This document shows positions 29,740 to 40,983 of a stretch of DNA of 64,000 nt, one piece after another. Below the pieces are notes generated by a model that saw only the letters and a list, made by a program, of their open reading frames with translations, was not told the DNA's origin and made no database searches. The translations under genes were made by a program, and so were the position numbers. Each line of letters begins with the position of its first letter. Position 1 is the stretch's first letter. The stretch comes from Insolitispirillum peregrinum (lineage in GTDB: Bacteria; Pseudomonadota; Alphaproteobacteria; Rhodospirillales; Rhodospirillaceae). Location: contig NZ_FTOA01000003.1 of the NCBI RefSeq assembly GCF_900156605.1, positions 372,001-436,000 of the forward strand. The letters run 5' to 3'.

Positions 29740-29773
29740 AAGCTCCGCCTGTTGCTTCAGGCGGGGCTTTTTT
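29740..29773 (+). terminator. Rho-independent terminator of hemA
   Basis: 12-bp stem AAGCTCCGCCTG/CAGGCGGGGCTT (one G-T pair) with a 6-base loop, followed by TTTTT. It overlaps the 3' end of the convergent kinase gene. Confidence 0.85.
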
Positions 29774-32765
29774 CCGCCTGCTTCACCAGACTTTGAATCC
29801 GTGCGGTCAGCTCTGACAGGTTGACCGGCTTGGACAGGAACGCAGAACAGCCTGCCATCTCTGCCCGCTGGCGGGTCTGCGGGGTGGCATCGGCGGTCAG
29901 GACGATCACCGGGATGCGGCACAGGTCGGGGCGCTGTTTCAGGCGGGTCAGCACCTCCAGCCCCGACATGTCCGGCAGGTTGATATCCAGAATGATCAGG
30001 GCCGGGCGCAGCCTTTCCGCCATCTCCAGGCCTGCTGCGCCTGTCTGCGCTACGGCAAGCGACAGGCGTGTAAATTCACTGAACATCAGTTCCATCAAGG
30101 CGATGTTGGCCGGATTGTCTTCGATGTACAGGGTCAGCCCGTCGGCATCAATGGCATGCTGGCTGAGATCTGCACCGGGGAGCAGGCTGGGGGCGCTGGT
30201 TGTGTCAGGCTGGGTGGGCAACTGGAATTCCAGCCAGAACCGGCTGCCCTGACCGGCAATGCTGTTGAAACCAATCTGGCCATGCATGATTTCCATCAAG
30301 GTCTTGCTGAGGGCCAGGCCGACGCCAGTACCTTCGATGTCGGACAGTTCTGCGCCCAGCCGGGAGAACGGCTGGAACAACTGCGCCTGCTTTTCGGCCG
30401 GAATGCCAAAGCCGCAGTCTTCGATCACCAGACGATAGTGGCTGTCATGGTATTCGCCGAACAGGCGGATGATTCCGTTGGGGCGGTTATACTTGGCGGC
30501 ATTGGACAACAGGTTCACCACCACCTGTTTGGCGCGGGTGGGGTCGGCCATGATGCAGGGCATGGTGGCCGGATCCTGACAGTCAACGGTCACCGCAGCA
30601 TTTTCGATGTAGCGGGAGGCCAGCACCAGAGCTTCCTGCACCACGGTTCCCAGGGCGGTTGGTTCGACCGACAGCGACATTTTGCCTGCTTCGATCTTTG
30701 CCAGATCAAGGACTTCGTTGATCAGGCTCAACAAATGCTCCCCACCCTTCAGGATGTAGTTCAATTGCCTGCGCTGCAGGTCGGTGACGGGGACTTTGGG
30801 GTTGCTGAGCATCAACTGGGCAAAGCCAAGGATGGCGTTCAGCGGGGTGCGTAGTTCGTGGCTCATGTTGGACAGGAAGGTGCTCTTGGCCTTGCTGGCT
30901 TCGACGGCGTGGTGATGGGCCTCTTCCAGTGCGCGCGTCCGGGCCAGTTCCTGTGTATGGTCCTGAAACACATTGAAGATGAACTGGGCACCGCTGTGTT
31001 CTTCGGTGATCACCCCCAGATTGCTGGCAGAGATGAACGAACTGCCGTCTTTCCGGCGTACCGGCAACAGACCCCGCCACGATTGCCCGCGCGCCAGCGC
31101 AGAACAAATTTCCCGATGCAGTGGCTCGGTGTCGTCAGTCCACACCCAACTGATCGTGTTATTGCCGAGATCGTCATTGGTGAAGCCGGTCATCCGTTCC
31201 CGCGCCGGGTTGCCGTACAGATAACGCCCGTTGCTATCGAGGATGCTGACACCTTCGTCGGTGGCCTCGATGATCCGGCGGAAGATTTCCAGCTGCCGTT
31301 GCGCTTCCATCATGCGGGTGATGTCGGTGTGAATCGAGATGTAGCGGATGCCGGTGGTATCATCGGAATGGGTCGGACAGATGGTGGTCTGCAACCAGTA
31401 CAACTGGCCAGTCTTGCTCTTGTTGCACAGAACGCCCTGCCAGATTTTGCCCTGCAGCAGGGACTCCCACAAATCCTGATAGAACTGGGGAGAATGGCGG
31501 CCGGACTTGAGCAGACGGTGGGATTGCCCCAACAGCTCGGTCCGGTCATAGCCACTGCTCTGGCAGAACTGGTCATTGCAATAGGCGATGGTGCCGCTGG
31601 CATCGGTCATGCTGATGATCGAATGGGCATCAACCGTGCGCAACAGGTCCTGCAACTCGGCGGTCCGTTGCTGCACCAGCGTCTCGATGGCATTGCGTTC
31701 CGAGTGCAGGCGGGACAGCAGGTCGGCAAACGAGCGTGACAGCGACGCCGTTTCCCGGAACTGGCTGCAGGGGGGAATGTCCTGGCCATCGCGGATCGCG
31801 CTTTCCAGCATTTCGATCGGACGTGCCAGATAGCGGGCCAGCAGGATGGCGGCAATGATTGCCAACAGGATGATACCACCCGAGACCATGAACAGGGCTT
31901 TTTGCAACGGGCTGATCAGGGCGAAAATGTCGGCTTTTTGGGCTTCGAGGACCACTGACCATCGTAGGCCGGGTTGGTGCTGGGCGGGGGGAGCGTGGGC
32001 GATGGCGGACAGGATGCCGCCCGGGCTTTCCCAGAGCGTGCCATCCTGAGCAGGCAGGCTGTGGGATAACAGGCTGCCCAGCCGGTCATGCGGCCCCTGA
32101 ATGATTTGCCCCTCGCTGTCGACGATCAGAATGGTGTAGCGACCGTTGTTTTCAAAGGGCCGCAGCGCATCATTGGCCCACGCCCAGCCGAGATGAACCG
32201 AAAAGACCCCGGCAAGAGTCTGCTCCGGGGTGCGCAGGGGAAAGGCAAAATCGATCAGCGGCATGTTCTGGCCGGCAATGGGCGAGACGCTGCGTTGTTC
32301 GGCATCCTGTGCGGCCCCCATATAGGGAACCGACTGGGCGCCCTTGAACCAGGGCCGCTGCACCACCGAGGCACCTTCGAGGAATTTCGGGTTGGCATGG
32401 CGGATAATGCCATCCGGCGAGGTGACCGATATCCACGGTTGTTCCTGAAAGGCGTTTCTGAACAGGGTCAGGGTGGTGGCGATCACGTCGGGGGACAGGT
32501 CACTGCGCTGAAGAAAGATGGCCGCCGCCGCCGCATCGCGAAAATGGGTCCTGAGCTGCCGTTCCACCCGGTCGCGGGCCTGCAAGGTGGTTGAACGCAG
32601 GTTTTCGACCGCCTCATCCTGCAGCGAGTGGCTGACGATCTGTGTTGCCGCCAGAAAAAAGGCAAAACAGCTCAGGATCGCCAGCAGCAAGGTTGCGAGC
32701 AGGACGGCGCGTCGGAGGGATAAGGGATTTGAGCCTGTGAAGCGTGGGGGGGCAGGGAAGCTCAT
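29757..32765 (-). CDS. Hybrid sensor histidine kinase/response regulator with periplasmic Cache-like sensor
   Basis: Protein of 1002 residues. Order: helix (about 18-41), periplasmic sensor resembling a double Cache domain (about 45-280), helix (about 291-311), HAMP-like linker, PAS (about 370-490), PAS (about 492-605), HisKA with phospho-acceptor His636 (MSHELRTPLN), HATPase (ENPANI-preceding region, GTGVGLALSKTL), and a receiver (about 880-995) with IILDINLPDMSG and the LTAD and KPV switch residues. No output domain, so a partner regulator or phosphotransfer protein is needed. Downstream of the electron-conduit operon on the same strand but separated by its terminator; a link to respiratory control is a guess. 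Confidence 0.9.
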   Translation of the reverse strand: MSFPAPPRFTGSNPLSLRRAVLLATLLLAILSCFAFFLAATQIVSHSLQDEAVENLRSTTLQARDRVERQLRTHFRDAAAAAIFLQRSDLSPDVIATTLTLFRNAFQEQPWISVTSPDGIIRHANPKFLEGASVVQRPWFKGAQSVPYMGAAQDAEQRSVSPIAGQNMPLIDFAFPLRTPEQTLAGVFSVHLGWAWANDALRPFENNGRYTILIVDSEGQIIQGPHDRLGSLLSHSLPAQDGTLWESPGGILSAIAHAPPAQHQPGLRWSVVLEAQKADIFALISPLQKALFMVSGGIILLAIIAAILLARYLARPIEMLESAIRDGQDIPPCSQFRETASLSRSFADLLSRLHSERNAIETLVQQRTAELQDLLRTVDAHSIISMTDASGTIAYCNDQFCQSSGYDRTELLGQSHRLLKSGRHSPQFYQDLWESLLQGKIWQGVLCNKSKTGQLYWLQTTICPTHSDDTTGIRYISIHTDITRMMEAQRQLEIFRRIIEATDEGVSILDSNGRYLYGNPARERMTGFTNDDLGNNTISWVWTDDTEPLHREICSALARGQSWRGLLPVRRKDGSSFISASNLGVITEEHSGAQFIFNVFQDHTQELARTRALEEAHHHAVEASKAKSTFLSNMSHELRTPLNAILGFAQLMLSNPKVPVTDLQRRQLNYILKGGEHLLSLINEVLDLAKIEAGKMSLSVEPTALGTVVQEALVLASRYIENAAVTVDCQDPATMPCIMADPTRAKQVVVNLLSNAAKYNRPNGIIRLFGEYHDSHYRLVIEDCGFGIPAEKQAQLFQPFSRLGAELSDIEGTGVGLALSKTLMEIMHGQIGFNSIAGQGSRFWLEFQLPTQPDTTSAPSLLPGADLSQHAIDADGLTLYIEDNPANIALMELMFSEFTRLSLAVAQTGAAGLEMAERLRPALIILDINLPDMSGLEVLTRLKQRPDLCRIPVIVLTADATPQTRQRAEMAGCSAFLSKPVNLSELTARIQSLVKQAEKSPA

Positions 32766-32894: not shown

Positions 32895-32931
32895 AAAAAA
32901 AAGCCCTCCGGATTTATCTCCAGAGGGCTTG
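32895..32931 (-). terminator. Terminator of the multiheme operon
   Basis: On the minus strand, AAGCCCTCTGGAG pairs with CTCCGGAGGGCTT around a short AT-rich loop (one mismatch) and is followed by a T8 run. It lies 75 bp past the MtrB/PioB gene stop. Confidence 0.88.
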
Positions 32932-33004: not shown

Positions 33005-35278
33005 TCACCACTTGATTTTGGCTGTTGCCATCAGGACGCCGACGTCATAGCTGGGGTCGCCTGTTCCGCTGATCAGAACGGTCTGGCTGGTGGTGTTGCT
33101 GGTCGAGGCGGCTTCCTGCACATTCAGATAATCCTTCGACATCAGGTGTTCCCACTGCCCGGTCAGACCGAGGGTGATGCCGTCTTCGACCTCGTACTCC
33201 CCGCTCAGGCGCAGCGAGTTCTGGATGGTCAGGGTATCGGGCAGATCGGTGCCGGTGTTGGTCGCCGTCGGAGAGGCGGTGTTGCGCTGGCGGCTGGTGA
33301 TGCCATAGGTGGTGCGGGCAAAGGACAGCGAGTCATCCAGACTGAGCTTCACCTTCGGGTTGAACTGCCACTCGATGCCAGTGCCAACGGTGTGGATATC
33401 GTCCGAAGTTTGCAGTTTCCAGTCCACACCCGTGTTGGCCGAGCTGGAATTGATTTCCAGCGCACTGCCGACTTCCTGATAGCTGTAGAACAGGTGGGTA
33501 TTGATCCCGCTGACCGGGGTATAGCCAACATCAATGCTGCTGACCAGAAAGTGGTCCTTGGTCACGCCATAGACCACATCAGGGTAATTGTTGTCGGTAT
33601 AGCTGACCGATCCGGTCAGCGACAGTTCGGGTTGGATGGCCCAGGTGACGCTGCCCTTGACCTGATCCTGCAAGCGGTCGGTGTAGTTGTAATGCGACAA
33701 CTCCCGCTCGGCGGTGGTGGTGCGGCCGACGTAATTCCAGGCCAGATTGCCGTTGTAATCCTGCGCATCGCGGAACGCCCGACCAACGCTGAAATCTGCC
33801 GAGACATCCTTGCCGAACGCCGAGCGTACTTTCAGTTCACCCCGGTCTTCGGTGTTGCGGTTGGTAACCGAGTATTCGCGTTGCTTGTCGGTATGGGTAA
33901 ATGTCCCGGACAGGCGGGTATCTTTGGTCAGGCGATAGCCGCTTTCCAGCTCGGCGGACTGGTTCAGGAAAGAATAGGGGGTTACGGTCTTGATCCCGCC
34001 CGACCCGTTCCAGGTGGCGGTGCCGGTATCACCGCGATAGGACGGCGACAGGGTATAGGATGGCGAGTTGTTGTCGCGGTGATCAACGGTGTAGGCAGCC
34101 TTGACCGTCCAGTCATTGGCCAGCCGGTCACTGTAGACCAGATTGGCGAAATGGTTCTGGATCAGGCCATCGTAATGGGTGCCGTCAACGCGCGAGGTTC
34201 CGGCTTCGTAATAGCGGGCGGTATAGGACTCGTTCTGTATCTGGGCACTGACACGGGTGTTCAGGTTCAGGCGGCCATAGGTCCCAACGTTCAGACCGGC
34301 TTCGCCCTTCAGCATATGTTCAGTGTTGCTGGGCGGTAATGAGTACTGCGAGCCAGTGTAGTTGGCCCGGGTGGTGCCGATGAATGGACTGGAACCGACC
34401 CATTGCTGCTGGGTGTTGGTAAAGCTGGAAAAGACGTAGCTCAGTTGTGCCTGAAACAGCTTGCGGGTATAGGCGGCGGTTGCGCTGATGCGGTCGGTAT
34501 CGTACTGAACCGGTTCGAGGAAGGCGGCAAAGTAGTTGTTGTTGATGAACATGAACGAGTTGCTTTTGGTGCCCTGCTTGTGTTCATGGTCAATCTTGGT
34601 GGTGAAATTCCAGTTGGCGATGCCCTTGTAGGAAAACGAGCCGTCAACCCGGTCGCGGCGGGTGCCGACCTGTTCGACGGCCAGATATTGCGAGGCCCGC
34701 GCAATCCCGGCGGCATTGGTCGAGGTGGTGTTGATCGACTTGGCGGCAAGGCCGTTCTGCAACGAGCCATCGCTGCGGAACAGGGTGTGGTAGTTGTCGG
34801 TTTCGATATAGGGCGTGCCCTGATAGTTCAGCCTGGCGGTCCATGTGCCTTGCTGACCCATCTTCAGGCGGGCTTCGCCGTCTTCCAGCAGCTCGTGCGA
34901 GCCGAGGTCGATGTTGCGGGCGTCAAAGGTGACAAAGAAGGTGCCATCATCCTTTTTGACCGTCCGGTCTTCCAGATGGACCCAGCCTTTGGACACCATC
35001 CCGGCCTTGTCCGAGCCGGAGAAGCGGCCATACATCCCGGAACTGCCCTGCTGATAGCCAACGGCCATCCCGGCTTCGTTGACGGTGACCGGCTTGTCGG
35101 ACTCCGGCTTTTCCTTGCTGCTGTCGGCGGCGCTGCCCTCGGCAGCCGGTTCATCCAGTCCGAAATCATCGGCAGACGCCGGACCGGCGGCAAGGGGTGT
35201 CAGGCAGGTTGACGCCAGCAACACCCAGCCTTTGCTCCAGCGGGCCAATCCCCGGCGGAGTGAGATAGAGGTGATCAT
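33005..35278 (-). CDS. MtrB/PioB family decaheme-associated outer-membrane barrel
   Basis: Protein of 757 residues with a signal peptide ending PASA|DD (about 36), followed by a Glu/Ser-rich linker and a long series of alternating aromatic/polar strands, ending in an aromatic-terminated strand (LMATAKIKW). MtrB/PioB proteins form a large barrel that sheathes a decaheme cytochrome and lets electrons cross the outer membrane. Unlike Shewanella MtrB, no CXXC is present in the mature protein, as in PioB-type members. Last gene of the operon; its partner cytochrome gene is 152 bp upstream, with a palindromic repeat between. Confidence 0.88.
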   Translation of the reverse strand: MITSISLRRGLARWSKGWVLLASTCLTPLAAGPASADDFGLDEPAAEGSAADSSKEKPESDKPVTVNEAGMAVGYQQGSSGMYGRFSGSDKAGMVSKGWVHLEDRTVKKDDGTFFVTFDARNIDLGSHELLEDGEARLKMGQQGTWTARLNYQGTPYIETDNYHTLFRSDGSLQNGLAAKSINTTSTNAAGIARASQYLAVEQVGTRRDRVDGSFSYKGIANWNFTTKIDHEHKQGTKSNSFMFINNNYFAAFLEPVQYDTDRISATAAYTRKLFQAQLSYVFSSFTNTQQQWVGSSPFIGTTRANYTGSQYSLPPSNTEHMLKGEAGLNVGTYGRLNLNTRVSAQIQNESYTARYYEAGTSRVDGTHYDGLIQNHFANLVYSDRLANDWTVKAAYTVDHRDNNSPSYTLSPSYRGDTGTATWNGSGGIKTVTPYSFLNQSAELESGYRLTKDTRLSGTFTHTDKQREYSVTNRNTEDRGELKVRSAFGKDVSADFSVGRAFRDAQDYNGNLAWNYVGRTTTAERELSHYNYTDRLQDQVKGSVTWAIQPELSLTGSVSYTDNNYPDVVYGVTKDHFLVSSIDVGYTPVSGINTHLFYSYQEVGSALEINSSSANTGVDWKLQTSDDIHTVGTGIEWQFNPKVKLSLDDSLSFARTTYGITSRQRNTASPTATNTGTDLPDTLTIQNSLRLSGEYEVEDGITLGLTGQWEHLMSKDYLNVQEAASTSNTTSQTVLISGTGDPSYDVGVLMATAKIKW

Positions 35279-35338
35279 GGAGGTATCTCCGTCCTGGCCT
35301 GACCCCGTTGCGCCGGGATCAGGCCGAAGGTGGTGAGG

Positions 35339-35435
35339 CTAGAGCGTTTTCACACTGAGCGAAAACGCTCTCCATTTTTCATGCCGCATTTTCCGAGCCG
35401 TTGACCGGAGACGGTCAACTTGAAAATGCTCTAAT
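35339..35435. repeat. Palindromic intergenic repeat (GAGCGTTTTC / GTTGACCG type)
   Basis: Two hairpins: GAGCGTTTTC..GAAAACGCTC (35342-35370) and CCGTTGACCG GAGA CGGTCAAC (about 35398-35419), with outer CTAGAGC and GCTCTA ends. This type of palindrome is familiar as a dispersed non-coding repeat in alphaproteobacteria. The right end overlaps the stop codon of the decaheme gene. It could stabilise or attenuate mRNA between the cytochrome and the barrel gene. Confidence 0.7.
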
Positions 35436-36489
35436 GCGTCAACATCCCGCCCGATGGCGCACTGGAGCCGTGCACCTTGGAGTGACAGTTGCTGCACCCG
35501 CTGGACAGCAGCATGTTGTAGCTGCCGACACCGCTGCCGCCGGGCAACTGGTTGCCCCCGGACAACAGGGCATCATGGCTGTTGCGGCTGGTCTGGTGGC
35601 AGGTCATGCACAGGAACGGATCGCGCATGGTCAACAGGTGTTTCTGGGTCGAGCCATGCGGCGTGTGGCAGGTCATGCAGTCGTCGCGCACCGGCTCGTG
35701 TTCCCAGATGAACGGACCGCGCTGTTCGGCATGACAGGTGTAGCAGGTTTCGTTGGTGGTCATTTCGGTCAGCAGCGACGGCCCGCCCGAGCCGTGGACG
35801 GCGTGGCAGTCGGAACAACTGACCTTGCCTTCCTTGATCGGGTGATGGCTGAACGCCTGCGCTTCGCCGCGCTGCTGGGCATGGCAACTGAAACAGACTT
35901 CCGGCTGGGTCATCTTGTCCATCACCGGGTCCTGCGTGGTGTGCAGGGTGTGGCAATCGGTACAGGCGACATCGGCCTGCTGGTGCTTGGAGCCGGGCCA
36001 GTTGATATGTTCTTCGCCCAGATGGCACGACCGGCAGACCTCGTTGCGCTTGTCAACCGGCGAGGCCAGCGGTTCCTTGAACGACACATCGACCGGCGGC
36101 CGTTTTTCGCCCTTTGGCGGACGGGCGTTGTTGTGCTCGTCGCTGGGGCCGTGGCAGCTTTCGCAGGCATGGTTGGCCATCGGCGAGGTCGGGTCGTCCT
36201 TCACCCCGTGGGCTGTCTTCATAATGGTGCGATCGGTGACGGTATCGTGACACTTGATACAGGTCTGCTCGCCCCTGGCGGCCCAGGTGATGGCATCATC
36301 GGCGGGCTTGGCAGGCTTGTCGGCATCCAGCGGAGACGCCGGAGCCACCTCGCGCACCCAGCGTGACGATTGCCCGGTGGGGAACGGCTCGGCGGCGATG
36401 GCGTGGCCGAACCACGCTCCAACGGCAAAGGTCAGGGTATAGGCCAGCAGCAACAGGGCTGTGGCCTTTAAAACGTGGCGCGCTGTCAT
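35431..36489 (-). CDS. Periplasmic decaheme c-type cytochrome (MtrA/DmsE family)
   Basis: Protein of 352 residues with an N-terminal export signal or anchor (about 8-30, ending in AIAAEP) and ten CXXCH sites: CIKCH, CESCH, CRSCH, CTDCH, CFSCH, CSDCH, CYTCH, CMTCH, CMTCH, CSNCH. Number and size match MtrA/DmsE/PioA-type wires that thread through an MtrB/PioB barrel. The barrel gene follows on the same strand, supporting a cytochrome-porin conduit. No DMSO reductase genes (dmsAB) are in the window, so the substrate is open. Confidence 0.92.
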   Translation of the reverse strand: MTARHVLKATALLLLAYTLTFAVGAWFGHAIAAEPFPTGQSSRWVREVAPASPLDADKPAKPADDAITWAARGEQTCIKCHDTVTDRTIMKTAHGVKDDPTSPMANHACESCHGPSDEHNNARPPKGEKRPPVDVSFKEPLASPVDKRNEVCRSCHLGEEHINWPGSKHQQADVACTDCHTLHTTQDPVMDKMTQPEVCFSCHAQQRGEAQAFSHHPIKEGKVSCSDCHAVHGSGGPSLLTEMTTNETCYTCHAEQRGPFIWEHEPVRDDCMTCHTPHGSTQKHLLTMRDPFLCMTCHQTSRNSHDALLSGGNQLPGGSGVGSYNMLLSSGCSNCHSKVHGSSAPSGGMLTH

Positions 36490-36497
36490 GGCAGGTC

Positions 36498-37448
36498 CTA
36501 TTGCTTGGCGGCGATGAGATCAGCGGTGCCTTGCCCGAGGGCGAAGGTGTATTCATACGAGGTGTGATGGAACCGCTTGTCGGAATGGCCGACGTGGACC
36601 GAAATGCCAAAGGTATAGGGCTTGCCTTCGACCAGCGGACGCCACGGCGCCGGAGCGGCCAGCGGACGCTGCATCACCACCGTCCAGGTGCCATCGGCAT
36701 AGCTGGCGGTCGAGGTCAATTGTCCCGGCAGTTCGGCGCGGGTATCAAAAATCTCGCCACCGATGGCTTCGGCCTTGTTCGGCGGGGTCAGGCGGGCCTG
36801 CCACCATTCCTGCATGTAACCGGCAGCCTTCAGTTCGGCCAGATCGGCATCGGGCTTCAGGGCATCGCCGCCACCGGCGCGGGTCAGCTTGGCGCGGGTC
36901 TTCATCAGGTATTTGGTGCGGTTGGCACCGTTGGCGGTGGGCATCGAGCTGTTGTCTTCGTGGCAACTGGCCCAGCAGCCAGCGCGCACGCCTTCCTTGA
37001 CCGCTTCATCGTTAAAGATGATCGCCACCTTGGTCGGGGCCTTGGGGTCCATCCTGGTATCGGGCGAGGCCGGTTCCTTGAACTGGAAGCGGATATAGAA
37101 CGCGCTGGCGTCATAGGCCATCTTGACGTTCGACACCACATGGCCGGGGAAGCTGGGGATCGGGGTTGGTTCGGCTTTTTTGCCCGACACCATCAGGTCG
37201 CCCTGGGTCTTTTCTTCGCCAGCATGGCAGGCAATGCAGTTCTTGCCCGCCTTGAATTTATCGGCGGCGGAATGGTCGGCGGTGGTCAGGTTCCATTCCC
37301 ACGACGTTTGTCCGGGATAGAGCATCACGATGTCCTTGCCCGGCACGCTGGACCAGTCGATGGCCAGCGCGGGCGAGGCGAATGCGACCGGAGCCGCTGC
37401 CAGCAGGAGGCCGCTCGCGCTGTATTTGAGAAGATCAGTGATGTTCAT
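36498..37448 (-). CDS. Ethylbenzene-dehydrogenase-related heme-binding protein with an added c-heme site
   Basis: Periplasmic protein of about 316 residues; signal peptide ends near SPALA|ID (29). It has one canonical CXXCH (CIACH, 71-75) and a second CWASCH at 158-163, which has three residues between the cysteines. The body (PGHVVSNVKMAYDASAFYIRFQFKEP and the C-terminal PYTFGISVHVGHSDKRFHHTSYEYTFALG) fits the EB_dh/cytochrome c-552-DMSO-reductase-like domain, the heme b-binding gamma subunit fold. Between the inner-membrane fusion protein and the decaheme wire, so a periplasmic electron carrier is likely. ATG 37466 is an alternative start. Ends 8 bp before the decaheme gene. Confidence 0.8.
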   Translation of the reverse strand: MNITDLLKYSASGLLLAAAPVAFASPALAIDWSSVPGKDIVMLYPGQTSWEWNLTTADHSAADKFKAGKNCIACHAGEEKTQGDLMVSGKKAEPTPIPSFPGHVVSNVKMAYDASAFYIRFQFKEPASPDTRMDPKAPTKVAIIFNDEAVKEGVRAGCWASCHEDNSSMPTANGANRTKYLMKTRAKLTRAGGGDALKPDADLAELKAAGYMQEWWQARLTPPNKAEAIGGEIFDTRAELPGQLTSTASYADGTWTVVMQRPLAAPAPWRPLVEGKPYTFGISVHVGHSDKRFHHTSYEYTFALGQGTADLIAAKQ

Positions 37449-39480
37449 TTGCACAACCTCTGTCAAAAAAAGCCGAACGGATGCGAAACGCAGGACGCCC
37501 CGCTGGAGTCAGGGAGTTCGGACTAAAGGATTTCTGTTCAGGACCTGACCGGATGGAGAGCGGGCGCATGGCCCGGCGTTTTTTCCACCACACAAACGGC
37601 GCGTGGCTGAGGTGATGGAGCAGGTAGCAGGTGACCAGCACCGCAAAGGCCATGTGCGCCAGCGCGACCCAGGCGGTGGAGCGGACGGCGGCAAACTGGT
37701 GCGGGATCAGCTCGGGCCACCAGAACACCAACCCGCTGGCGACGATCAACGGGACAAAGGCGAACATCGCCACGCTGTCGAGGCTCCACGACCAGCGGCG
37801 CTGGTAGATCAGGGTCAGGGCGATGAACACCAGAAAGCCGACACTGACTGCCAGCCCGGACCATTCATGCAGGTCCGCCGACCATTCGATGCCGACCAGA
37901 TTGAACGGCGAGTGCGGGAAGTGCAGCGCCAGTCCGGTGAGCAGCAGCAGGCTCATCAGGGTTGAATGCACCCGGTGCCACCAGGTGAAGCCCCGCCGCA
38001 TGGCATGGGTGCGCTGTTCGAGGGCGGCAATCTCGGCGCTGCTGTCGCGTCCGAGGGTTTCGTCCAGCAGGCGGGCCAACTGCGGCACGCACTGCCCGCA
38101 GGTGGCCCCGGCGCGGGTGGCGGTGGTCAGTTGCGGGACGGTGGTCAGCCCCTGATCGCGGATGGCCGCTTGCAGGCTGTCACGGGTGAGGGCGGCGCAC
38201 TGGCAGATGATCATCTCGCCGCTGGTGGCCTCGACCGCTCCGTGCAGAACCGACCGCTCGCACAGGTGGCCGACATCGCTGCCGCTGGCGATCCAGTGGC
38301 TGAGCTGGCTGCTGTTGCCGGTTTCGCCGATCAGCACCGCCGACAGCACCCGACCGGCGTGCAGCACCACCTTTTTATAAATGCCCTCGTCCGGCTGGTG
38401 GTGGACCAGCGGGCGGCGTTCGGGGTGGTCTTCGTCCGGGGCGGCTTCCCCGCCACAGAACACCGCCAGCGAGGGGATTTTCAGCACGGTGGACTGCGCG
38501 GCAACTGTGAACGGGGCGGGGGTACCGTCGTGCAGAACCTCGGCCAGAACGGTCGCCATGTCGTACAGCGGGCGGACCAGCCCAAAGGTCTGGCCGTCGA
38601 ATTCGACGCATTCGCCCAAGGCAAAAATGCCGGGGTGCGAGGTGCGCAGATGGCCATCCACCAGCACGCCGCGCCCGACGTTCAGACCACAGTCTGCCGC
38701 CAGCGCGGTATGGGGCCGGATGCCGACCGCCACCACCACCAGATCGGCGGGCAGCGTCTCGCCCGAGGTCAGGGCAACCCCTTGCACCCTGCCGTCACCG
38801 TGCAGGGCGCTGGCCTGAGTGTCCGTCAGGCAGCGGATGCCGTGGCGGTCCAGATGATCGGCAATCATCGTGCCGGCGGTGGCATCGACCAGTCGTTCCA
38901 TCAGGGTGGCGGCCATGTGCACCACCGTGACATCCATCCCGCGCTGCTTCAGGCCCCAGGCGGCTTCCAGCCCCAGCACTCCGCCGCCGATCACCACCGC
39001 GTGCCGGTGCTGTTGTGCCGCCGCCAGCATCGCTTCGACATCGCGCAGCGAGCGGAAACTGACCACATTGCCCAGCCCGATCCCCGGCAGCGGCGGCATG
39101 ATGGCATCGGCTCCGGTGGCCAGCACCAGCCGGTCCCAGCGGTCCGTATGACCGCTGGCGGTGCGCAGGCTGCCGCCCTGCTGATGGGCGTCCGGGGAGC
39201 TGTGGTCGGGCAGGATATGCACCACCGCATCGCCTTGATGCAGGGTGATGCCGCGCTCGGCATACCATGACGCCGGGTGCGTATGGATTTGCTCGGGGCT
39301 TTTGTCTCCGGCCAGCAGCGACGACAGATGGACGCGGTTATAACCCGCCACCGGCTCGGCGCCAAAAACGCTGATGCGGAAGGACCGGGTTGGCTGGCTG
39401 GTCAGCAGTTCCAGCAGGCGAACCGCCGCCATGCCGTTTCCGACCACCACCAGATGCGGTAAAGACGCAGGCGTGCTCAT
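37435..39480 (-). CDS. Fusion: NirB-like FAD oxidoreductase + BFD-type [2Fe-2S] + cytochrome b membrane domain
   Basis: Protein of 681 residues. Residues 8-400 are a pyridine-nucleotide-disulfide-type flavoprotein: FAD motif VVVGNGMAAV (11-20), NAD(P) motif VVIGGGVLGLEAA (162-174) and the FAD-contact LGECVEFDG (about 288). Residues 424-470 are a BFD-like domain with Cys426, Cys428, Cys461 and Cys464. Residues 500-630 hold about four transmembrane helices with paired histidines (His502, 505, 520, 538, 609, 622, 623) suited to heme b, like cytochrome b561. No sulfite/nitrite reductase domain follows. Predicted to move electrons between NAD(P)H and the periplasmic cytochromes encoded beside it. 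ATG overlaps the heptaheme stop (TGATG); its end overlaps the next gene. Confidence 0.82.
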   Translation of the reverse strand: MSTPASLPHLVVVGNGMAAVRLLELLTSQPTRSFRISVFGAEPVAGYNRVHLSSLLAGDKSPEQIHTHPASWYAERGITLHQGDAVVHILPDHSSPDAHQQGGSLRTASGHTDRWDRLVLATGADAIMPPLPGIGLGNVVSFRSLRDVEAMLAAAQQHRHAVVIGGGVLGLEAAWGLKQRGMDVTVVHMAATLMERLVDATAGTMIADHLDRHGIRCLTDTQASALHGDGRVQGVALTSGETLPADLVVVAVGIRPHTALAADCGLNVGRGVLVDGHLRTSHPGIFALGECVEFDGQTFGLVRPLYDMATVLAEVLHDGTPAPFTVAAQSTVLKIPSLAVFCGGEAAPDEDHPERRPLVHHQPDEGIYKKVVLHAGRVLSAVLIGETGNSSQLSHWIASGSDVGHLCERSVLHGAVEATSGEMIICQCAALTRDSLQAAIRDQGLTTVPQLTTATRAGATCGQCVPQLARLLDETLGRDSSAEIAALEQRTHAMRRGFTWWHRVHSTLMSLLLLTGLALHFPHSPFNLVGIEWSADLHEWSGLAVSVGFLVFIALTLIYQRRWSWSLDSVAMFAFVPLIVASGLVFWWPELIPHQFAAVRSTAWVALAHMAFAVLVTCYLLHHLSHAPFVWWKKRRAMRPLSIRSGPEQKSFSPNSLTPAGRPAFRIRSAFFDRGCANEHH

Positions 39481-40553
39481 CAGCGGTCCTCCCTGTGGGA
39501 TGCCGGTGGGGTGGATGCAGGGGGCGACCGGCGCAGGCGACGCCACAGCAGGCGCAGCAGGATGGCCACCGCCGTCAGGCTGACCAGCGCCAGTGCCGAC
39601 AGTTCCAGCCACTGGTTGCGGTTGGCCCCCATCACATAGATTTCGCCCAGCCATGGCGCGTTGCGGAACCCGCCCCAGCCGTCATCGCTGTCGCGCAGCA
39701 TTTTCTTGTACAGACGCTTGCCCAGTTCACCGTCGTCGCTGTGACAGGCGGCGCAGTCGCGGACGGCCTTTTCCTTTGGCAGCACGGTGTGCGACAGGGT
39801 CAGTTCGGGAACCGGCGTGTGGCAGTCCATGCAGCGCACCTGCGCAAAGTGCAGGTCCTGTTCCGGCAGCCAGTCATGGGCAACCGCCATGTCCGGTCGC
39901 TTGTCCTTCGGTTTCCACTTGGCGTAGGTGGCGTCATCACCATGGCAGGTCAGGCACTGGGTGTTGTCCTGTTCGGTGGCCATGTGTGCCGAGCCGATTT
40001 TCGACGCCTTTTTCATGATGTGGGCTTCGTGGCACGACAGGCAGGTGAAGCTGGCCCCCAGTTCCTTGAAATGGACCGAAGCCTTGAATTCCGGCTCGAT
40101 GATTTTGGCCGGTTGCTGGTGGCACTCGATGCAGCCCTTGATCTTTTCTTTGGCCTTGGGCAGGTGCGGATAGGGCACATAGGCCTCGGTGTGGCAATCC
40201 TTGCAGGCCATCTTGCCGTGGTCGCCCATCTCGAAGCGGTGGGCGTCCTGGGTCAGGGTTGCCAGCAGCTTCAGGTCCATCCCGGCGCGCGGCGGGTTTT
40301 TCACCCCGTCCTCGCTGTGGCAGGACAGGCAGTCGGCGTTCCACTTCCTGATTTTGGCTGGCAGCTCCGGGTCGGCTTCGGTCAGGCCGAAGTCATCGCC
40401 GCCGCTGAAATCATCGCTGGCGGCCTCTTCGGCGCGGGCGGGCGCACTGCCAAACCCCTGCGGCAGCCCGCTGATCAGCAGGGTTGCCAGCAGAAAAAAG
40501 GCAACAAAAAAGGGTTTCGGCGCGATGCGCCGAAGGCGAAAGCCCTGAATCAC
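39480..40553 (-). CDS. Heptaheme c-type cytochrome with C-terminal membrane anchor
   Basis: Protein of 357 residues starting with GTG, 9 bases after GGGG. The signal peptide (about 15-41, APARA|EE) is followed by an Asp/Glu-rich start, then seven CXXCH sites (CLSCH, CKDCH, CIECH, CLSCH, CLTCH, CMDCH, CAACH) and a C-terminal helix (about 312-336) ending in basic residues, which would leave the hemes in the periplasm. It may act as the quinol- or heme b-linked acceptor that feeds the decaheme wire, in the position CymA or NrfH occupies elsewhere, but it is not an NrfH homologue by eye. First gene of the five-gene operon. Confidence 0.85.
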   Translation of the reverse strand: MIQGFRLRRIAPKPFFVAFFLLATLLISGLPQGFGSAPARAEEAASDDFSGGDDFGLTEADPELPAKIRKWNADCLSCHSEDGVKNPPRAGMDLKLLATLTQDAHRFEMGDHGKMACKDCHTEAYVPYPHLPKAKEKIKGCIECHQQPAKIIEPEFKASVHFKELGASFTCLSCHEAHIMKKASKIGSAHMATEQDNTQCLTCHGDDATYAKWKPKDKRPDMAVAHDWLPEQDLHFAQVRCMDCHTPVPELTLSHTVLPKEKAVRDCAACHSDDGELGKRLYKKMLRDSDDGWGGFRNAPWLGEIYVMGANRNQWLELSALALVSLTAVAILLRLLWRRLRRSPPASTPPASHREDR

Positions 40554-40896: not shown

Positions 40897-40927
40897 AAAA
40901 AAAGAAGGCCGCCCTTGCGGACGGCCT
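40897..40927 (-). terminator. Terminator downstream of ettA
   Basis: On the minus strand AGGCCG..CGGCCT hairpin with further CC/GG pairing is followed by T-rich TTCTTTTTTT. It lies about 290 bp past the ettA stop, beyond the miniature element, and would also shield the multiheme operon. Confidence 0.75.
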
Positions 40928-40983
40928 CCCGAGTTCCATATGCTTGCCAATAGTACTAGAGCCGTGAGCGTTAAACCTGACGC

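Follow-up and report, generated by a model that had tools for sequence, protein, structure and literature searches.

The window analysed here, a stretch of 64,000 nucleotides from Insolitispirillum peregrinum (contig NZ_FTOA01000003.1, positions 372,001 to 436,000), contains a five-gene operon on the minus strand that runs from 40553 to 33005 and encodes, in order, a membrane-anchored seven-heme cytochrome c (cyt7), a flavoprotein/[2Fe-2S]/cytochrome b fusion (hereafter the fusion), an EB_dh-family heme protein, the decaheme cytochrome MtrA and the outer-membrane barrel MtrB. We propose, with a probability of roughly 0.6, that the products of this operon constitute a complete conduit leading from the cytoplasm out to the cell surface, which would be fed directly by reduced nicotinamide adenine dinucleotide or its phosphate (NAD(P)H) and not by quinol. 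The sequence-based support for this proposal comes from the domain content, the cofactor ligands, the predicted topology, the conserved gene set and the loss of a loop and of the motif [FY]NxxQ from the fused cytochrome b, whereas the NAD(P)H donor, the outward flow, the acceptor and the order in which the carriers act are what we infer.

In the proposed mechanism NAD(P)H would reduce the flavin adenine dinucleotide (FAD) of the cytoplasmic NirB-like domain of the fusion, from which electrons would pass via the [2Fe-2S] cluster of the same protein to a cytoplasm-side heme b (predicted ligands H502/H623) and then to a periplasm-side heme b (H538/H609). The latter would in turn reduce the seven hemes of the membrane-anchored cyt7, which would deliver electrons to MtrA inside MtrB and thus to the outside, probably by way of the two-heme EB_dh protein. 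Candidate extracellular acceptors are Fe(III), humics and electrodes.

The fusion protein and its cytochrome b relatives

The fusion combines, from the N-terminus onwards, an NAD/FAD domain, a Rubredoxin_C domain, a BFD [2Fe-2S] domain and a four-helix cytochrome b. All the FAD, NAD and [2Fe-2S] motifs are conserved in the fusions, and the four BFD cysteines are invariant across both the fusions and the NirB homologues. Its fold matches that of NADH-dependent ferredoxin reductases, such as BphA4 and putidaredoxin reductase, with the flavoprotein half dominating the matches of the whole-fusion search. The TIGR02374 profile scores 389.7 bits against a cut-off of 578 and its match covers positions 1-483 only; no Pfam domain of the siroheme/[4Fe-4S] sulfite-nitrite reductase type was found in the fusion. 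As the genome additionally has a full-length NirB-like frame (G000:C4, 867 residues), the fusion is not the sole NirB-like protein of the cell, and this separate frame together with the missing siroheme domains led us to reject an identity as an ordinary nitrite reductase. The fusion likely starts at the ATG at 39480; the start of the longest frame, at 39654, was rejected because that frame would run through cyt7 and hits a stop there in the alignment with the version from G216, a Magnetospirillum-like genome. Four membrane helices were counted in the fusion, which the AlphaFold model places at the C-terminus, and H502, H538, H609 and H623 are the candidate heme ligands of this region.

Divergent cyt7 genes are present in 24 further genomes of the window's order. 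At 19 of the 20 such loci that were read, a four-helix cytochrome b either directly follows cyt7 or is fused to it (fused in three cases). The stand-alone b gene begins at about the cyt7 stop codon, and its first ligand histidine is coded 34-41 nucleotides past that stop. These stand-alone cytochromes b match Escherichia coli FdnI, the cytochrome b of formate dehydrogenase-N (1KQF_C, E=3.4e-7), and their histidines line up with FdnI H18, H57, H155 and H169, which we take to be the heme ligands of that protein. The cytochrome b of the fusion is homologous to the stand-alone forms (hhalign 99.6%, E=1.4e-23), and the histidine spacing (relative positions 1, 19 and 37 and a pair 14 apart) is identical in the stand-alone forms, the window fusion and the fusion of Skermanella stibiiresistens; the same pair, 14 apart, is kept in the alignment of the G216 fusion. 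When the fused cytochrome b alone was searched against solved structures, no match was obtained.

Against this background of shared architecture, the loop between the second and third transmembrane helices is 43 residues shorter in the fused cytochrome b, and the motif [FY]NxxQ, present in all 19 stand-alone or cyt7-fused cytochromes b, is absent from all four NirB-type fusions (that of the Magnetospirillum metagenome-assembled genome (MAG) G278 being read up to its frameshift). The motif aligns with K108-Y-N110-A-G-Q113 of FdnI, whose N110 presumably lies in the quinone pocket. Further, the fused cytochrome b carries the NirB-type module at the end predicted to be cytoplasmic, which is the same side as the lost loop. 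The unusual trait of this input is a fused cytochrome b without the quinone-site-like motif that its relatives have kept; an earlier reading of the window from its sequence alone had recognized an unusual inner-membrane input and missed this trait.

The fusion might still be quinone-linked, as are CbcL and FdnI, in which case the flavin domain would either feed the quinone as an NADH dehydrogenase or play a regulatory role, while cyt7 and MtrAB would be driven by quinol. The FdnI/HydC type, to which the fused cytochrome b belongs, is a family known for quinone exchange. Likewise, CbcL of Geobacter, a bc-type inner-membrane cytochrome, oxidises menaquinol (PMC12307469), and the inner-membrane b cytochromes of the PCC3/PCC4 clusters have been proposed to be quinone-active (PMC5566968). 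We nevertheless regard such a linkage as unlikely, given that the loop and [FY]NxxQ are kept in every one of the 19 counterparts and missing from each of the four fusions, and that the fusions have a full module for NAD(P)H oxidation, predicted to lie on the same side.

Two side observations concern the divergent cyt7 loci. A protein with three hemes, of about 395-400 residues and with five to six predicted membrane helices (counted in L113, L115 and L123), is encoded near divergent cyt7 or mtrAB at loci L113, L115, L123 and L087. Many divergent cyt7-cytochrome b pairs (L121, L120, L112, L114, L081) precede or adjoin a gene for a single-CX3CH protein, which Pfam assigns to the EB_dh family in L081 and L120 and which points to a possible MtrAB-independent pathway.

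Operon structure and the outer module

The five-gene operon is real, and since G216 and Skermanella carry all five genes in an identical order it is not a chance arrangement. The coordinates, domains and motifs (Table 1) bear out the gene content given by the sequence-only reading, namely a seven-heme cytochrome, a fusion, an EB_dh protein, a ten-heme MtrA/DmsE cytochrome and an MtrB/PioB barrel. Its description of five same-strand genes with tight junctions holds as to strand and for three junctions: cyt7 and the fusion overlap by 1 nucleotide in TGATG (the cyt7 stop and the ATG at 39480), the fusion and EB_dh overlap by 14 nucleotides, and EB_dh and mtrA are 8 nucleotides apart. It fails at the gap of 152 nucleotides between mtrA and mtrB. 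Two strong hairpins, each followed by a T run, bracket the set, as consensus matches to terminators and not as proof of them. No FNR-type box is listed in the promoter region of the operon and none matches between 34555 and 43331; across the whole window such a box is matched 26 times, compared with a mean of 15.5 after shuffling.

Table 1. Coordinates of the operon, its domains and the flanking hairpins in the window
Feature	Position	Strand	Evidence or properties
cyt7	39480..40553	-	GTG start; 7 CXXCH; PF14522/PF14537
Fusion, 681 residues: NirB-like FAD/NAD(P)H, BFD [2Fe-2S] and four-helix di-heme-type cytochrome b	37435..39480	-	PF07992, PF04324, PF18267, PF01292
Fusion, FAD/NAD(P)H-binding part, residues 9-296	38593..39456	-	PF07992 E=1.5e-51
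Fusion, BFD [2Fe-2S] domain, residues 424-474, Cys 426, 428, 461, 464	38059..38211	-	PF04324 E=7e-13
Fusion, FdnI/HydC-type cytochrome b part, residues 496-640	37561..37995	-	hhalign homology, His spacing
EB_dh-family protein, periplasmic or extracellular	36498..37448	-	PF09459 E=2e-26; one CX2CH and one CX3CH
mtrA/dmsE decaheme cytochrome	35431..36489	-	10 CXXCH; TIGR03508 295 bits, cut-off 192.2
mtrB/pioB outer-membrane beta-barrel porin	33005..35278	-	TIGR03509 429 bits, cut-off 240; PF11854 E=1.9e-108
Terminator-like hairpin 3' of mtrB	32901..32930	-	12-pair stem then T run; consensus match only
Terminator-like hairpin 5' of the operon, at the end of the preceding transcript	40903..40930	-	12-pair stem then T run; consensus match only

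Cyt7 has a signal peptide-like N-terminus and one C-terminal hydrophobic helix (segment 318-336), the predicted anchor. Besides its 7 CXXCH motifs, exactly seven other histidines are invariant in the four operons, that is, one per heme, as would be expected of a bis-histidine wire and not of a catalyst. MtrA and MtrB both pass the curated cut-offs, PF11854 giving MtrB 364 bits against a cut-off of 23, which along with the conservation of the operon upholds the view of the sequence-only reading that the genes encode a trans-envelope conduit with an unusual inner-membrane input. By analogy to known systems MtrA would be inserted in MtrB and conduct electrons across the outer membrane.

The genome has one copy of mtrB and one of cyt7 (at E<=1e-30), no PF03264 match to the NapC/NirT/CymA family anywhere, and no member of the OmcA/MtrC family above the cut-off (the best match scores 20.8 bits versus 209.3). 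Thus, the absence of CymA and of MtrC/OmcA that had been noted for the operon extends to the whole genome, and neither PioC nor DmsAB was found in the operon, as had also been noted. We also considered, and rejected, that this genome has a second route from the inner membrane to MtrAB, as there is no NapC family protein and a single cyt7 at that E-value.

Both heme motifs of the EB_dh protein, CX2CH and CX3CH, are invariant in 10 homologues. Its structural model, of moderate quality (mean predicted local distance difference test score of 66), matches EbdC (2IVF_C, E=1.2e-9) and NxrC (7B04_C). The resemblance to the gamma subunits of ethylbenzene dehydrogenase and nitrite oxidoreductase, together with the unusual CX3CH motif of one heme, might suggest that EB_dh is the true catalytic end and acts on one particular small substrate, which it would reduce at the outer membrane or beyond it, with the wire serving that enzyme only. 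However, the matched gamma subunits are themselves heme carriers, the related operons that we read showed no catalytic subunit of a molybdoenzyme, and the two-heme form adjoins mtrA in at least 7 otherwise different clusters, all of which makes a catalytic role of this kind very improbable.

The inputs of these clusters differ. Two-heme EB_dh, MtrA and MtrB are accompanied by a NapC/CymA input in G255 (L070), by cyt7 and a plain cytochrome b in G292 (L071) and G246 (L123), and by no nearby input in G118 (L088) and several genomes of the same family. Cyt7 with a plain cytochrome b stands beside mtrAB at three loci, of which L071 and L123 have EB_dh and L087 does not. The EB_dh-MtrA-MtrB set common to clusters with different inputs implies that the outer module is modular and that the version in the window is distinguished by its input.

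Several further genes were observed around the operon and its relatives. On the same strand as the operon, just downstream and past the second hairpin, lies a gene for a hybrid histidine kinase (29757-32765) that has PAS domains and matches dCache weakly; a regulatory role of this kinase is possible and unsupported. In genomes of the same family a DUF1800 and then a DUF1501 gene closely follow mtrB (L074, L075, L078, L089); Pfam confirmed DUF1800 in L075 and in L078, and DUF1501 in L075, with like-sized genes at the same place in the other loci and similar-sized, unscanned genes after mtrB in L076 and L077. This pair is a possible accessory set of this porin-cytochrome family. The MtrA-MtrB-EB_dh-cyt7-cytochrome b cluster of G292 includes a gene for a methyl-accepting chemotaxis protein (L071:12498-14633), a possible link between taxis and extracellular electron transfer. 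Finally, G205, G261, G267 and G284, of family f22, have at least two mtrB matches each, which suggests repeated expansion of conduits.

Occurrence and descent of the five-gene unit

Both G216 (L032) and S. stibiiresistens SB22 (L036), the latter recovered by a scan of named genomes, have the full operon with its gene order unchanged, and its neighbours differ between genomes. In G278 (L033/L035) cyt7, the fusion and the start of EB_dh are on one contig and mtrB is on another (L073); mtrA was not seen there because the first contig ends inside EB_dh. Among the 317 genomes of the window's order that were searched, the close form of cyt7 is confined to the window's own genome, G216 and G278. Similarly, among 398 sampled genomes of the phylum, a match to the fusion profile that reaches the cytochrome b part was obtained, under a strict E-value limit, in the window's own genome only.

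In the trees of MtrB, MtrA, EB_dh and cyt7 the five-gene members form one clade each (support 100/99-100), and the MtrB proteins of the same-family genomes that were read, which are of the EB_dh-MtrA-MtrB-DUF1800 type, are far from the five-gene clade. This pattern fits a five-gene unit that is either mobile or anciently shared. A plasmid-borne origin was tried and rejected, as a tblastn search with MtrB against a plasmid collection gave no match. For three genes compared between G216 and G278, the ratio of nonsynonymous to synonymous substitution rates is 0.18-0.30, indicating purifying selection. In G216 a frameshift close to five consecutive C breaks the EB_dh gene in two (L032:11600-11690), owing to either sequencing error or real decay, and the G278 fusion gene is frameshifted within its cytochrome b part (L033:6785-6967).

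No terminal reductase was seen in the conserved five-gene operons, nor a molybdoenzyme catalytic subunit in the related operons read. Neither the operon of the window nor its copies in G216 and Skermanella encode DmsAB, the G278 copy being readable in part only. An operon for a dimethyl sulfoxide or other molybdoenzyme reductase was accordingly rejected, as the copies read lack the catalytic subunit. The sequence-only reading had held that clusters invariably including a terminal reductase would make these proteins an ordinary dimethyl sulfoxide or nitrate pathway; no such reductase was seen in the homologous clusters that were read. Its suggestion of sulfoxide respiration found no support, with no DmsAB-like enzyme in the related operons that were read. 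Taken as a whole, that interpretation is partly supported.

Direction of electron flow and possible role

Several points weigh against direct feeding by NAD(P)H. The PF01292 match in the window fusion is below threshold (26.1 versus 30.1 bits), and the membrane part of its AlphaFold model is of low confidence. That [FY]NxxQ marks a quinone site would follow from its alignment with FdnI N110, a residue presumably used by the quinone site of FdnI; a search for a paper linking the motif to quinone binding found none. The fusion may have a different quinone pocket. The order of the carriers, the position of EB_dh and the association of MtrA with MtrB are assumed from known systems, and the sequence is equally compatible with NADH and NADPH as the donor. 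Lastly, one gene is frameshifted in two of the four operons (EB_dh in G216 and the fusion in G278), through either assembly error or decay.

The conduit might alternatively serve electron uptake, with Fe(II) or a cathode as the source; MtrAB, EB_dh and cyt7 would hand the electrons on to the fusion, and the fusion would then yield NAD(P)H for biosynthesis. The MtrAB homologues PioAB and MtoAB do run inward in Fe(II) oxidisers (PMC5566968), and the genome resembles the Pio/Mto systems in having no MtrC or OmcA above the cut-off. Yet, on thermodynamic grounds, electrons going inward over two hemes b would run against the membrane potential and arrive at a couple near -0.32 V, so that donors far more reducing than Fe(II) would be needed, and the operon has no PioC-like gene. 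We hold uptake to be quite improbable, and the same argument, inward flow against the membrane potential onto a couple of roughly -0.3 V, disfavours the electron uptake that the sequence-only reading had entertained for this input.

Given an inside-negative potential, outward flow would be downhill and inward flow onto NAD+ steeply uphill, making export the likelier direction. As export via two hemes b without proton pumping would dissipate the membrane potential, the likeliest role of an NAD(P)H-fed conduit would be the disposal of excess reductant or the reduction of low-potential extracellular acceptors. These considerations suggest a valve, or the use of low-potential acceptors, and not a main energy-conserving chain. 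With confidence evenly balanced, we suggest the following scenario: a cytochrome b that partnered cyt7 lost its quinone-site loop and gained a NirB-type flavoprotein, after which the resulting five-gene unit spread between families as a quinone-free NAD(P)H wire across both membranes, which vents reductant at the expense of the membrane potential.

In evolutionary terms this would be a domain-for-site swap in a respiratory cytochrome b, the plain combination of cyt7, cytochrome b, EB_dh and MtrAB persisting in relatives. If the proposal is true, the cell could poise its NAD(P)H/NAD(P)+ ratio relative to an acceptor outside the cell, independently of quinones, extracellular reduction would persist without quinones and consume membrane potential, and the operon would offer a ready-made NAD(P)H-to-electrode module useful for engineering.

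Comparison with known systems

The MtrAB pathways that we reviewed exchange electrons with the quinone pool or with photosynthetic carriers, and the conduit proposed here would, if real, be unlike the quinol-fed extracellular respirations among them. We found no earlier description of an NAD(P)H-flavoprotein-cytochrome b (NirB-cytochrome b) fusion feeding MtrAB; our search covered part of the literature and leaves priority unproven.

The N-terminal 480 residues of the fusion resemble NirB, the large subunit of the assimilatory NADH-nitrite reductase, in their FAD/NAD domain, Rubredoxin_C and BFD [2Fe-2S], and differ in that a membrane cytochrome b replaces the siroheme nitrite-reductase domains. 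The b part of CbcL is presumably of the FdnI/HydC type. The CbcL-like pairing of a multiheme cytochrome c with such a cytochrome b was found at 19 of the 20 cyt7 loci and is backed by the homology of the b parts. CbcL of Geobacter sulfurreducens likewise couples a multiheme cytochrome c with a cytochrome b of the inner membrane, and the pair forms the entrance of an extracellular pathway (PMC12307469). CbcL oxidises menaquinol, whereas the cytochrome b of the window carries an NAD(P)H-FAD-[2Fe-2S] domain and no quinone-site-like motif. Inner-membrane b cytochromes have also been proposed in the PCC3/PCC4 and Gallionellaceae clusters (PMC5566968), and a broad survey of MtrCAB found the inner-membrane partners to be exchanged modularly, most of them being quinol dehydrogenases (PMC8805035).

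A goethite-reducing Telmatospirillum MAG has an operon of a 'cytochrome c-552 (2 hemes)', MtrA and MtrB, whose two-heme protein was proposed by its authors as an extracellular terminal reductase (PMC6933298). The likeness extends to the order of two-heme cytochrome, MtrA and MtrB, to the absence of MtrC/OmcA and to an alphaproteobacterial host (PMC6933298), with the c-552 likened to EB_dh by heme count and position only. In contrast, the quinol input reported for that organism is NirT/CymA-like and encoded elsewhere in its genome, and neither cyt7 nor a FAD-cytochrome b fusion was reported (PMC6933298). In view of that operon the outer module, EB_dh-MtrA-MtrB, is largely known.

With MtrCAB-CymA of Shewanella, PioABC, MtoAB and DmsEFAB the window shares the pairing of a decaheme cytochrome with an MtrB/PioB barrel that would enclose it, and it departs from them in a genome without CymA/NapC, or MtrC/OmcA above the cut-off, and an operon without PioC and DmsAB. 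In NOX, FRE and STEAP proteins a cytosolic NAD(P)H-flavin domain drives electrons outward via hemes b. The analogy with these is functional, their domains being unrelated, and the path proposed for the window would continue beyond the inner membrane through periplasmic hemes and an outer-membrane conduit.

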